Below, piece after piece: positions 4,296 through 22,183 of a stretch of DNA of 52,014 nucleotides (its first letter is position 1; each line of letters opens with the position of its first letter). The notes beneath the pieces were generated by a model. It worked only from the letters and a program-made list of their open reading frames with translations. It was not told the origin of the DNA and did not search any database. The stretch comes from Bacteroidales bacterium. Its GTDB lineage: Bacteria > Bacteroidota > Bacteroidia > Bacteroidales > F082. The stretch covers positions 1 to 52,014 of the forward strand of contig JAFXLL010000006.1 of the NCBI GenBank assembly GCA_017531225.1. The letters are read 5' to 3'. The position numbers and the translations under genes were made by a program.

Positions 4296-7200
4296 ATGGC
4301 CACGAAAAGAAATATCGTAGAATCGGCGATGAGGAACAACAATCTGGTGTTCTTCTTCATGATGGTCATCGTCGTATTTGGCTTCATTGCACTGCCCAGG
4401 CTCAAAAAGAATGAGTTCCCTGATGTAACCATCAGGCAAGGCGTGGTAGCGGTGGTTTATCCAGGTGCCACTGCCGAGGAAATCGAGCAGCGTGTTGCCA
4501 AGCCCACTGAACAGTATCTGTTCACGTTCACTGATGTGGACAAGAAAAAGACCTATTCTTATTCCAAAGATGGTATGATGGTGGTCTTCGTGTCGTTGGT
4601 GCCTACGGCTAAGGACGCCCCGATGACATGGTCGCGCATCCGTCAGGGATTGGTGTTGTTCCGTCAAACTAACCTGCCTCAGGGGGTGTTGGCCACTGCG
4701 GTCATCGATGACTTTGGAAACGCTTCTTCACTGCTGTTGGCTATCGAGAGCGACCAGCGCCCATCACGGGAATTGCGTGAGTTTGCCGACCAGTTGGCTG
4801 ACCGCCTTCGCACCATCAAAACCATGGGTAATATCAAGATCATTGGGGAGGAGAAAGAGGAAATCGCCATTTATATGGATCCTACCCGGATGACGCAATA
4901 CGCCGTGACGCCTTCCATGATCACGGCTGAACTGGCAGCACACAGCTTGCGCACCGTCACTGGTAAGGCTGATAACGCCGATGGCAACGCGGTCATTCAC
5001 GTGAATGTGCCCTATAAAGACCTTTATGAAATTGCGGAATTGATTGTTTTCGCTGATCCCGTCACGGGTCAGGTGATCAAGCTACGTGACGTGGCTCGCC
5101 TTGAGCGCCGTTATCAGGAGACTTCACAATACATACAATATTCCGATGCTAACGCTAATAACAACAGCTGCCTGATGTTCTCCATGGAGATGCGTTCTGG
5201 CAACAACATTGTGGAGTTTGGCGAACAAGTCAACAAGGTGATCGACGCTTTCTTGGCTACCGCTCCTCCCGACATCAATGTGCATCGCATCACCGACCAG
5301 CCTGACGTGGTCAATAAGTCGGTACGTTCTTTCTTGAAAGACTTGATCGAGGCCATCATCATTGTCATTTTGGTGATGCTGTTTTTGTTCCCGCTGCGTA
5401 CGGCTTTGGTATCTTCGACTTCAGTGCCCGTGTGCATTGCGGCAACATGGGCGATTATGTATCTGATGGGTGTGGAGTTGAATACAGTGACATTAGCCGC
5501 CTTGATCGTCGTTCTCGGTATGATTGTTGACGACTCGGTAGTGGTGATTGACGGCTATTCCGATATGTTGGCTACAGGCCATTCGCGATGGTATTGCGCT
5601 TCTGTCTCTACACGCAGCCTGATGACATCCATGCTTATTGCCACATGCTCGGTGTCGTTCATGTTTTTCCCCATGCTTTCGCTGTTGCATGGCACTGTTA
5701 TGGGTGATTTCGTGACACTCTTCCCATGGGTGATCTTCATTGCGCTCTCGTGCAGTTTCCTCTATGCCATTTGGGTGATTCCTTTCCTGTCGGCAAAGAT
5801 CATCAAACGCACCAGCCACAAGAAGATGTCGGTGATTGAGAAGATCCAGACCAAGTTCTTCAATGCAATGCAGAAGTCCTATAAGCGACTTCTTGACTTG
5901 TGTTTCCGTCATAAGTGGGGTACGATTGCCGTAGCTTTGGCTACCGTTGTGTTTGGCGTTTATCTTGGCACAAAGGTAGACATTCAGATGCTCCCCAAAG
6001 CCGAGCGCGACAGCTTTGCGGTAGAGATACACCTGGCTACAGGCAGCTCTATCGAGGAGACTGCTGCGGTAGCCGATTCGCTGACTAAGATTTTGAAGGC
6101 TGATTCTCGCGTGAAGTCAATAACCGCCTTCCTTGGCATGGCTTCACCGCGATTCCATATCACCTATGCTCCTGAAGCCGTTCCCACCAGTGCTTATGCC
6201 CAGTTTATCGTGAACACGGTGTCGGAAAAGGCTACCAAGGAAATGATCAATGAGTATTCCTTGAAATATGAGAATGCTTTCCCAATAGCTCAGATTCGTT
6301 TCAAGCAGATGGACTATCAGATAGTGAATGCGCCGGTGGAGTATTACATCTCGGGCGACGACTACAAGACGATCAGTCCCTTTGCAGATTCGCTGCTGTC
6401 TTTCATGCATCAGGATCCCAATCTGTTTTATGTCCATTCCGACTACGATGGCATCGAGGAGATTGTGGAAGTTGACTTGGATATCGACGAAGCTAACCGA
6501 CTGGGGGTGACTCAGGCGGTGCTATCGGTGTATCTGGCAGGCGCTTTGTCAGGCAACAATCTGGTTTCGATGTGGGAGGAAGGCTACAACCTGCCTACCA
6601 AGATCTATACGGAAGGTGTTCACGACATCGACTACGAGGCCTTGGGTGATTTGTTGGTTCCTGCTTTGGGGTCAGGAGTATGGGTGCCGCTGCGTCAGGT
6701 GGCTACACTGCGTCCCTCATTCGCGCACGACAATCTTACCCACCGCAATGGCCGCCGATGCATCACGGTGATGGCTGATGTTGCTCCAGGCAAGGCGCAA
6801 TTGGCGGAGTTCAAGAAAATCGGCGAATATATCGAGACGTTTGACCTTCCTGAGAATGTGGAGATCGAAGAGGGTGGTTCCATGGCGCTTACCAGAGATA
6901 CCATGCCATCGCTTGTTATGGCTATCATTGCAGCCATTATAGTGATGTTCATCGTGCTAATTGTTCACTACAAGATGATAGGCATCTCAATCCTCTCGCT
7001 CTCACTTTCGGTGCTTTGTGTCTTCGGAGCGACATTTGGCCTATGGCTCTTTGGGCTTGATATTTCCCTGACTGCCATGCTGGGCTTGATCTCGCTGATC
7101 GGTATCATTGTTCGCAATGCCATCATCATGTATGACTATGTGGCCGAGTTGCGCGAGAAGGAGAAGATCTCGGTGCACGAAGCCGCTTACGAGGCAGGAT

Positions 7201-20824: not shown

Positions 20825-20832
20825 TATATTTG
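20825..20832 (+). promoter_or_regulatory. -7 promoter element of the long structured RNA
   Basis: TATATTTG (TAnnTTTG) in an AT-rich stretch; the expected transcript start is near 20838, right at the base of the first hairpin. Confidence 0.65.
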
Positions 20833-20837
20833 CCCTT

Positions 20838-21117
20838 GATTGTTCGGGGAGAAATCCGAACAGTTGAAGGCAATTAGTGCTTGTATCTTGATAAGCGAAA
20901 TCTGGAACATTAAGTAGATCGGATACGGGACAGTAGTTGGCCAGCCTTTATTGTATTCTCAGCGTTTCTGATAATACGTACAGGCTAGGTAAACGGTGTC
21001 TATTTTGATCTACGAGGTTTTCCAGAGCCTGCTTATCAGAAATGGGTGCAATAAGTTTCCTAGCCTTCTTTTGTAATACGCCGAATATGGGAAACTATAG
21101 GCAAAAGAGTTGCGCCC
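20838..21117 (+). ncRNA. Long structured RNA, 6S-like rod (candidate)
   Basis: Gene-free but heavily self-complementary. A 5' hairpin pairs 20841-20847 with 20856-20862. A long interrupted rod follows: 20889-20896 with 21031-21038, 20901-20907 with 21020-21026, 20914-20920 with 21007-21013, 20929-20932 with 20997-21000, then 20943-20947 with 20982-20986, 20953-20957 with 20973-20977 and 20959-20962 with 20968-20971. A closing stem, a large two-sided internal loop (20921-20942 and 20987-21006) and a terminal arm is the plan of 6S RNA. A 3' element (21044-21051 with 21110-21117) follows. No clear terminator is seen, so it could instead be a structured leader of the gene at 21140. RNase P and tmRNA signatures are absent. 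The 3' end is uncertain. Confidence 0.6.
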
Positions 21118-21139
21118 GACACGAAAAAGGGATTATTCA

Positions 21140-22183
21140 ATGAAATTAATGAATGTATTATTCGTAATGATTGCTTTTCTATTCCATAATATAGTTGAAG
21201 CTCAGATAACAGTAAGGAATAAACAAAACGAAAATCCTTATCCGGAAAAAATGTTAGTTTACGATAGCCTGAATAACTTTGGCTTTGATAAATTCGGCAT
21301 AATATATGAGCCGTTCAATGCTGCTAAAGAAAAGTTTGATTCGAAAGAAAAAGGTATAGGTGTATTGGGTAACCTGTATAATCAATTCATTGGACAAAGA
21401 ATAATGATACTACCGAAGCCAGAACAATCAAAGACTAAAATGGCAAGCAATGATGAGTATGCCGATTTAAGAGGGAAATACTTTACAATAGTTGATGTTA
21501 GTTTTCAAGATAATATGTTTAATACGATGGACAGAGTCTATGAATTACAGGATGATGATGGAGATAGGACTGAATGGATTATTCCTTCATACAAGAGAGA
21601 AGAAGCCATTTTGTTGGGGTTTTATGAGAAGCTAAGATCGTTGTATGTGGATAGCGTTTTTGTATATACCGGGAAAGCAATAGGTGGTGGAAGCCAATTC
21701 CTTACTCCTAAGCTAACACATAGTGCAATCGATTCACGAACAAATGATATTGTTTCACTAAATGTAGGAGACAAATGGACTTGTTCTGACTTCCAAATAG
21801 TTGATGATGATGTTACAGTACAATTATACGCGGTGTTCTATAACAAAAAAGGGAACGAGATTTTAGTTAGGCTAAAAAACATGTTTAAAACAAAAGGAGA
21901 ATTGGACATTACATTCTTTTCGTGTTTTGTAAAAGAGTCGGAATTTGAAGCAAGAAAAAAGATGCTTACTGAAAAATATGGAGAAGAAAATGCAAACTTG
22001 ATTAGCCTTCAACAAGTAGCTATTGGAATGACAAAAGAGATGTGTCATGAAGCTTGGGATACACCTGACAACGTCAATAAAACAGTTGTTGATGGCATTG
22101 TAACAGAACAATGGATTTATCCTAAAGGATCATACTTGTATTTTACTGATGGAATTTTGACTGAAGCTCACAAAGAATATTGA
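21140..22183 (+). CDS. Secreted protein of unknown function with BamE/SmpA-like C-terminus
   Basis: A 347-residue protein with a signal peptide (MKLMNVLFVMIAFLFHNIVEAQ). No domain is recognised in the first 280 residues. The last 60 (IGMTKEMCHEAWDTPDNVNK, EQWIYP, YLYFTDGILTEA) resemble the short SmpA/OmlA-type module seen in many secreted Bacteroidota proteins. Base composition is clearly more AT-rich than dapB or lepB, with codons such as aaa, ata and tta dominating, suggesting separate origin. It lies between dapB and lepB, directly downstream of the structured RNA. An in-frame ATG at 21110 overlaps the folded element; ATG 21140 gives the signal peptide. Confidence 0.75.
   Translation: MKLMNVLFVMIAFLFHNIVEAQITVRNKQNENPYPEKMLVYDSLNNFGFDKFGIIYEPFNAAKEKFDSKEKGIGVLGNLYNQFIGQRIMILPKPEQSKTKMASNDEYADLRGKYFTIVDVSFQDNMFNTMDRVYELQDDDGDRTEWIIPSYKREEAILLGFYEKLRSLYVDSVFVYTGKAIGGGSQFLTPKLTHSAIDSRTNDIVSLNVGDKWTCSDFQIVDDDVTVQLYAVFYNKKGNEILVRLKNMFKTKGELDITFFSCFVKESEFEARKKMLTEKYGEENANLISLQQVAIGMTKEMCHEAWDTPDNVNKTVVDGIVTEQWIYPKGSYLYFTDGILTEAHKEY

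Follow-up and report, generated by a model that had tools for sequence, protein, structure and literature searches.

A structured RNA between dapB and lepB

Between dapB and lepB, the window (the whole 52,014-nucleotide stretch of Bacteroidales DNA analysed here) carries a promoter box, a long structured RNA and a gene of 347 codons (Table 1). The -7 box read here by the initial annotation is borne out by the sequence, as is the gene-free stretch behind it: from the end of dapB (20626) to the gene at 21140, neither strand holds an open reading frame (ORF) of at least 60 amino acids, the sole exception being a TTG-start extension of the 21140 gene itself, back to 21110. The product of that gene has no match in Pfam or PADLOC.

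The RNA from 20838 to 21125 folds with a minimum free energy of -104 kcal/mol, against -72.4 ± 4.6 kcal/mol for 200 dinucleotide shuffles, none of which reached as low a value (z = -6.87). The stem taken earlier for the outermost one of a rod (20889-20896/21031-21038) does exist as a helix but is an inner one, with two conserved helices outside it (20866-20871/21063-21068 and 20875-20884/21042-21051). A 5′ hairpin, P1, stands apart from the rod, and its apical part is common to other RNA classes. In the middle of the rod, where a large symmetric internal loop had been described, loops are small in the single-sequence fold and in a RIBOSUM-scored consensus; the default consensus leaves an internal loop of 16/14 nucleotides (columns 90-105/162-175), a region filled in the other two folds by short, less conserved helices (78-92% of pairs kept).

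Table 1 Features of the RNA locus in the window (double changes, both partners of a pair changed)
Feature	Position	Strand	Basis or remark
-7 promoter box TATATTTG	20825..20832	+	TAnnTTTG box
5′ hairpin P1 (GAUUGUUCGGG...CCGAACAGUU)	20838..20865	+	97.8% of cells paired; 9 of 11 pairs double-changed
P2, 5′ strand GAAGGC (partner 21063-21068)	20866..20871	+	98.2% of cells paired, 0 double changes
Switch strand s1 (CUUGUAUC)	20880..20887	+	Rod: with s4 region; alternative fold: with s2
Switch strand s2 (GAUACGGG)	20922..20929	+	Rod: with s3 region; alternative fold: with s1
Strand Y (GUUGGCCAGCCU)	20936..20947	+	Pairs with X in the rod; 92.4% of cells paired
Strand X (AGGCUAGGUAAAC)	20982..20994	+	Partner Y or X′
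Switch strand s3 (CUAUUU)	21000..21005	+	Rod: with s2 region; alternative fold: with s4
Switch strand s4 (AAAUGG)	21040..21045	+	Rod: with s1 region; alternative fold: with s3
Strand X′ (GUUUCCUAGCCU)	21055..21066	+	Pairs with X; 9 of 12 positions identical to Y
U-rich run UUCUUUUGU	21066..21074	+	Sequence
Whole conserved type A leader RNA	20838..21102	+	Fold, alignment, covariation
3′ motif GCC-N17-GGC, after the U-rich run	21080..21102	+	3 pairs, 99% of lettered cells paired
Tail motif GUUGCGCCCGACACG-N4-AGGG	21109..21131	+	Ends 8 nt before the start codon
Downstream gene, 347 amino acids	21140..22183	+	Signal-peptide-like start (by eye)
1,769 bp replacing 48 nt of the empty site L129	20560..22328		Last dapB codons, RNA and gene

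A family of leaders with many genes behind it

We refer to the RNA class of the window as type A. A DNA search covering 61 genomes returned 18 copies of nearly full length. The 14 genomes that carry them all belong to the window's genus; the 24 genomes from other genera had none. With R1, a covariance model of the copies, 44 full-length copies scoring above 200 bits were located in 35 of 100 congeneric genomes, among them the window's own, with up to three copies per genome; the window element scores 256.8 bits with this model, whose training includes it. An exact pattern matched 39 stretches in a collection of 84,980 species, labelled, where a source is given, mostly as Bacteroidales MAGs from the ruminant or horse gut (one short contig is labelled Bacillota and is probably mis-binned), and three RNA patterns run against viral contigs gave no match.

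The initial annotation proposed covariation of the stems in relatives as a check, and this is what the copies display. In 37 of the 39 distinct copies, the window's included (L013 and L198, whose 5′ hairpin is longer, were left out), 75 pairs are kept in 93.7% of cells, compared with 36.8-48.7% after sliding; 29 of these pairs are changed on both sides, and there are 154 double-change cells against 49.2 ± 7.8 in shuffled alignments.

The TAnnTTTG box lies directly 5′ of 37 of the 39 distinct copies (in the remaining two, L201 and L195, the stretch examined began inside the element), and in all 39 an ORF of at least 40 amino acids begins 13-215 nt 3′ of the element, with the start codon mostly 13-60 nt further on and often behind other motifs. 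The type A RNA is a 5′ leader, with box, RNA, U-rich run and gene in a fixed order. These positions support one fallback reading of the initial annotation, that of a structured leader of the 21140 gene; the other, an unnamed RNA of similar size, is supported too.

The ORFs behind the 39 copies form 26 sequence clusters, and many genes unrelated to one another therefore share a single class of leader. A Pfam search of 54 downstream proteins assigned 23 families, most of them seen in a single protein; the recurrent ones include DUF6140 (five proteins), EcoRI_methylase (four) and LRR (three). In one genome, two type A leaders 6 kb apart (G030:C6, 56359 and 62510) precede different genes; both leaders are themselves preceded by a POT-type transporter gene (by eye). 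A role in defence islands was considered and rejected, PADLOC having identified only Type II methyltransferases, in 4 of the 54 proteins. Among 80 EcoRI-type methylase loci of viral contigs, 48 were checked for the P1 core up to 450 nt upstream with one mismatch allowed: 47 lack it, and L236 has one weak match. A search for DUF6140 in plasmid records gave no match.

A pattern combining the box with the P1 core matched 85 times, in 45 of 100 congeneric genomes, compared with 12 matches of the reversed pattern, and exposed two further classes, B and C. In an order-wide sample of 295 genomes, a stricter pattern with no control matches was found in eight, two of them being the window's genome and a congener; among the other six, L208 and L215 are members by inspection, the RNA of L215 preceding an EcoRI-type methylase. 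R1 recognizes L208, L089, L107, L306, L096, L215 and L126 (E of 4.5e-4 or better) and fails to recognize L016, L027 and L303.

Weaker R1 matches contain another class, K, represented in the window's own genome by one RNA (G000:C11:37756-37890) before a P-loop-like gene (by reading). The 51 K loci studied were picked by hand, mostly from the upper part of the R1 listing, and are not a random sample. For the alignment, five without a recognized start or U-rich run were dropped (L398, L403, L408, L409 and L417), then exact duplicates (L371, L405 and L411), leaving 43, and near-duplicates (L369, L383, L400, L406 and L413), leaving 38. The K rod has 45 pairs, paired in 90.0% of cells, with 248 double-change cells against 87.9 in shuffles; its count of pair types shows no excess (77 against 77.1). 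A second model, R2, for which K RNAs were taken solely from the genus, recognizes L016, L027, L306 and L107. In the 52 kb of the window R2 has a single significant match, at 20871-21073 (50 bits, E = 7.9e-9), which is not independent because the K loci had been chosen with R1. Counting what either model recognizes, the superfamily comprises about eight classes.

Type B is also present in the window's genome, before a DUF6140 gene (L303). In 15 of 17 type B RNAs (a near-duplicate of L119, and L303, were left out) the consensus has 52 pairs, six of which are the X:X′ pairs defined below, and is 91.9% paired, with 47 double-change cells against 13.9 in shuffles; one helix has all seven pairs changed on both sides. 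The -33 region upstream of the type B promoter (GAGCATTAGTC) is complementary to GACTAATGCTC inside the RNA (L096, L097, L101, L119, L125 and others), and an A/G change there is mirrored in the RNA in most copies, L102 being an exception and L208 lacking the complementarity. This may reflect an operator, a guide-like contact or common descent.

At 19 of the best 30 dapB loci among the matches in 97 genomes, lepB lies no more than 450 nt away and the P1 core is absent; only the window and L149 show a P1 core within the stretch examined. The closest empty site, L129, whose DapB is 97% identical, has 48 nt where the window has a 1,769-bp segment (different last dapB codons, the RNA and the gene). 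In G021 and G106 a second, partial dapB lies beside the RNA. In a nuclease-like gene family, the RNA accompanies all seven close relatives, two of them as detected with R1, and is absent from two distant relatives of 39-40% identity. Among DUF6140 loci, the type B promoter of L300 has no RNA behind it, and in L301 the RNA sits between the same promoter and gene, at the transcription start; L300 may have lost the RNA or never had it. Together, the dapB, nuclease-like and L300/L301 patterns argue, from comparison of sequences, that the RNA is an attachable module. The 3′ end of dapB also receives other insertions, as indicated by a CRISPR-like repeat array at L132 (G036:C65). Tandem or nested leaders occur at L015 and upstream of L097, L122 and L125, in the form of remnants of a further RNA class lying directly upstream of a type B element or inside a type A element.

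Two mutually exclusive folds and their interpretation

Two arrangements of the same strands emerge. In the rod, s1 pairs with s4, s2 with s3 and Y with X; in the alternative, s1 pairs with s2, and X pairs with X′ in a helix that encloses s3:s4 and ends at the U-tract. The alternative helices were first suggested by forcing X:X′ in K RNAs during folding, upon which the 5′ arm takes the strand containing s2 and Y as its partner, and s3 pairs with s4. In the K alignment, 96.8% of s1:s2 cells are paired, and two of the pairs, whose positions stay unpaired in the rod, carry double changes in 11 and 8 of the 38 sequences. Helix I of class K has 40 double-change cells against 19.1 in shuffles and a score above the shuffles, and neither its double-changed pairs (6 against 5.9) nor its pair types exceed them; its GAGCUUU part is 79.5% paired, many rows being shifted by one in the alignment. 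The s3:s4 helix of class K is 97.4% paired, with nine double-change cells against 1.2.

The corresponding helices of type A were picked by eye from the K pattern before counting. Together, s1:s2 and s3:s4 are 94.4% paired, and 8 of their 14 pairs are double-changed against 1.5 in shuffles (94.6% of cells and 4 of 8 pairs for s1:s2; 94.1% and 4 of 6 for s3:s4). The X:X′ helix of type A, with 12 pairs, is 95.9% paired and invariant, with no double changes; the duplex of X with X′ is better than with shuffled X′ (P = 0.006), and covariation of Y:X within type A is not above shuffles. Because X′ was defined as the 13 nt before a located U-rich run, the run itself partly guided the selection behind the following counts. 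In representatives of nine classes, X, which lies in the apical part, is the best partner of X′ in 14 of 17, nine of them at P ≤ 0.05 against shuffled X′; five more are weak, and in three (C_L123, D and H) X′ favours another strand. Among 42 RNAs (38 of class K and four of the Bacteroides group), X is the best partner in all on reading and in 39 by the test of the script, 35 at P ≤ 0.05. These are two folds unable to coexist, each backed by covariation, and this is the main evidence for reading the RNA as a switch.

On balance we think that the window RNA is a 5′ leader with two stable states, acting most likely as an attenuator of transcription and belonging to a Bacteroidales superfamily, and that it probably decides whether transcription reaches the gene behind. 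In the rod, X′ would be unable to capture X, RNA polymerase would read through and the downstream gene would be made. In the alternative fold, the early strands s1 and s2 would pair with each other, which they can do first, and leave X free for X′; the resulting long hairpin, enclosing s3:s4 and followed directly by the U-rich run, would stop transcription and release an RNA of 170-240 nt. The predicted terminator would thus be X:X′ with the U-rich run, which in the window would form the end of a terminated RNA of about 237 nt. Single-strand folding favours the rod over the X:X′ fold in all nine RNAs folded, by 1.6 to 21.9 kcal/mol (19.6 kcal/mol for the window RNA), and the terminating fold would therefore need kinetic control or a binder. 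We hypothesize that a ligand, a protein or the speed of transcription regulates the choice.

Structured leaders and attenuators are already known. In attenuating riboswitches and T-box leaders, the antiterminator and the terminator share a strand, with a U-rich run and a gene behind; the window RNA resembles them as a 5′ leader with a shared strand, a U-rich run and a gene behind. Two features of attenuators are present in it, namely exclusive helices that share strands and one alternative hairpin followed by a U-rich run (a run that also served to locate X′). It differs in having no known ligand, four interchangeable switch strands and 26 clusters of genes. If our reading is right, Bacteroidales, human gut species included, use an undescribed kind of RNA switch in about eight classes, whose two folds, switch strands and attached genes are named and open to compensatory mutation. 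One leader RNA on many unrelated acquired genes raises the question of which common signal would suit so many.

Transcription might instead usually end at the U-rich run, yielding a stable non-coding RNA that acts in trans, with the gene expressed by leak only. Such a product would be compact and pseudoknotted, made of P1, P2, the rod and X:X′, and the very stable folds are in its favour, as is P2, which joins the strand after P1 to the start of the U-rich run in type A (98.2% of cells paired) and to the whole run in type B (93.3%). In type B, X:X′ is compatible with the rod, and the rod, P2 and X:X′ could coexist as a pseudoknot, which would be one stable RNA and not a switch. We nevertheless think a trans-acting product unlikely: each of the 39 type A copies has an ORF beginning 13-215 nt behind it, 26 gene clusters share one RNA class, and a single fold leaves unexplained the covariation of the mutually exclusive helices s1:s2 and s3:s4. 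Less probable still is a translational switch, in which the folds would mask or free the sequence ahead of the start codon and transcription would not be terminated. At the HTH-linked loci L371, L372 and L382 the U-rich run does lead straight into the start codon (GCCUUUUUUAUG), but the type A start codon lies mostly 13-60 nt further on, often past other motifs, and termination is the better fit for a G+C-rich arm with a U-rich run behind it.

Mobility of the gene cassette invites comparison with the bridge RNAs of IS110 elements, likewise structured RNAs at a mobile locus, and a guide-like or selfish RNA would account for the insertion at dapB, the different genes found with the same RNA at the dapB 3′ end, the presence and absence of the RNA behind one promoter (L301 and L300) and the complementarity of a type B segment to its own -33 region in most copies. 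We rejected this reading as very improbable. The IS110-type recombinase (PF02371) is rare, occurring in 11 of 100 genomes of the genus and not in the window's genome (G000); of two genomes with three copies of the RNA, G030 lacks it and G014 has one match. Type A has no consistent complementarity to upstream DNA, longer single matches being confined to L011 and L109, and variable positions covary as pairs instead of guiding.

The initial annotation had read the long rod with its internal loop as 6S RNA or an unnamed RNA of similar size. 6S RNA, also a long rod of similar length, has a large central bubble that mimics an open promoter; one consensus does leave the 16/14-nt internal loop, and loops are small in the other two folds. 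Neither 6S RNA nor Bacteroidales-1 RNA, the other family which that annotation named, matches the window in Rfam, at the gathering score or at E up to 10, and nothing else plausible appears there at E up to 10; the RNAs of the superfamily match no family of the Rfam release searched at the gathering score. The 6S family RF00013 is absent from the whole genome of the window and present in 5 of 14 control genomes; RF01685 also has no match, which is uninformative because it matched none of the controls. 6S RNA is a housekeeping gene expected throughout a genus. Full-length type A copies do not follow this pattern, occurring in 35 of 100 congeneric genomes with up to three in each, and 19 of 30 dapB loci lack the RNA. 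With no Rfam match and a multi-copy, patchy distribution, 6S RNA is unsupported and was rejected; we give it hardly any credence. A 6S RNA has been described in Bacteroides (PMC7366714).

The HTH-like gene and the tail motif

Class K is linked to a small gene. A profile made from six small helix-turn-helix (HTH)-like proteins of 75-86 amino acids (HIGxLI...WLA), for which Pfam scores fall below the cut-off in two of three proteins and are absent in the third, detects such a gene behind 26 of the 51 K RNAs, compared with none of 39 type A RNAs, none of 20 type B or C RNAs and 2 of 240 control places, one of which coincides with an R2 match (L042). Protein similarity yielded six relatives of the HTH gene in Bacteroidales and phage records: five filed as plasmids, from Phocaeicola massiliensis, Bacteroides finegoldii (three) and Parabacteroides distasonis, and one phage record. 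As an independent test, R2 finds the RNA at three of these six loci, in P. massiliensis (L419, 102.6 bits), B. finegoldii (L421, 56.6 bits) and P. distasonis (L423, 32.3 bits), and none at L420, L422 or the phage locus L424. Another gene that recurs after K RNAs codes for a small product of coiled-coil-like sequence (MDDKLIIQRLKELKAQIADLDKRM and similar; L369, L381, L383, L397, L399 and L408).

The HTH-linked form may be ancestral and may have been recruited to acquired genes. The HTH gene is a candidate for the protein partner of the switch, and a more speculative reading, which we consider improbable at present, makes its product a trans-acting factor that would bind the RNA fold, set its own level through its leader and control a scattered regulon of acquired genes with copies of the leader. 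If true, leader hopping would have built up a network of protein-RNA switches, some of them in gut Bacteroides.

An HTH-XRE RNA motif is also known; no Rfam family, this motif included if release 15 contains it, matched the RNAs at the gathering score. A human microbiome survey (2021) lists 15 candidates for structured RNAs ahead of HTH_XRE genes, in their potential 5′ UTRs (PMC8040213), and parts of the HTH-linked class may figure in that list. In the accessible text these candidates are described without such a family, a two-state fold or a spread to other genes. Our literature search, which drew partly on incomplete texts, recognized no description of this RNA family, with which an unnamed candidate of that survey may overlap.

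Two short motifs accompany the leaders at their 3′ side: the 3′ motif GCC-N17-GGC in most type A copies, and the tail GUUGCGCCCGACACG-N4-5-AGGG in some. DUF805b RNA (RF02914), of 35 nt and without a match in the window, is at most a neighbour of the rod; in L073 it matches at 1584-1616 and 5988-6019, directly before the tail motif and in the place held by the 3′ motif in type A. In the window's genome the tail 14-mer is not commoner than its reversed control (12 against 11 matches with up to two mismatches), and only its two exact matches seemed genuine. With at most one mismatch, the N5 form of the tail was present in 67 of 100 congeneric genomes, a count that does not take in the window's own N4 copy, and the reversed control in none. 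The two halves of the tail may resemble complements of a conserved 16S rRNA region. R2 places a rod just 5′ of the motif in L043, L045 and L047. As GTTGYGCCCGACACG-N4-5-AGGG, the tail lies 7-8 nt ahead of the start codon in many genes that are unrelated, genes without a rod included, and sometimes stands before each gene of a cluster, as in G076:C22, where nine lie within 8 kb.
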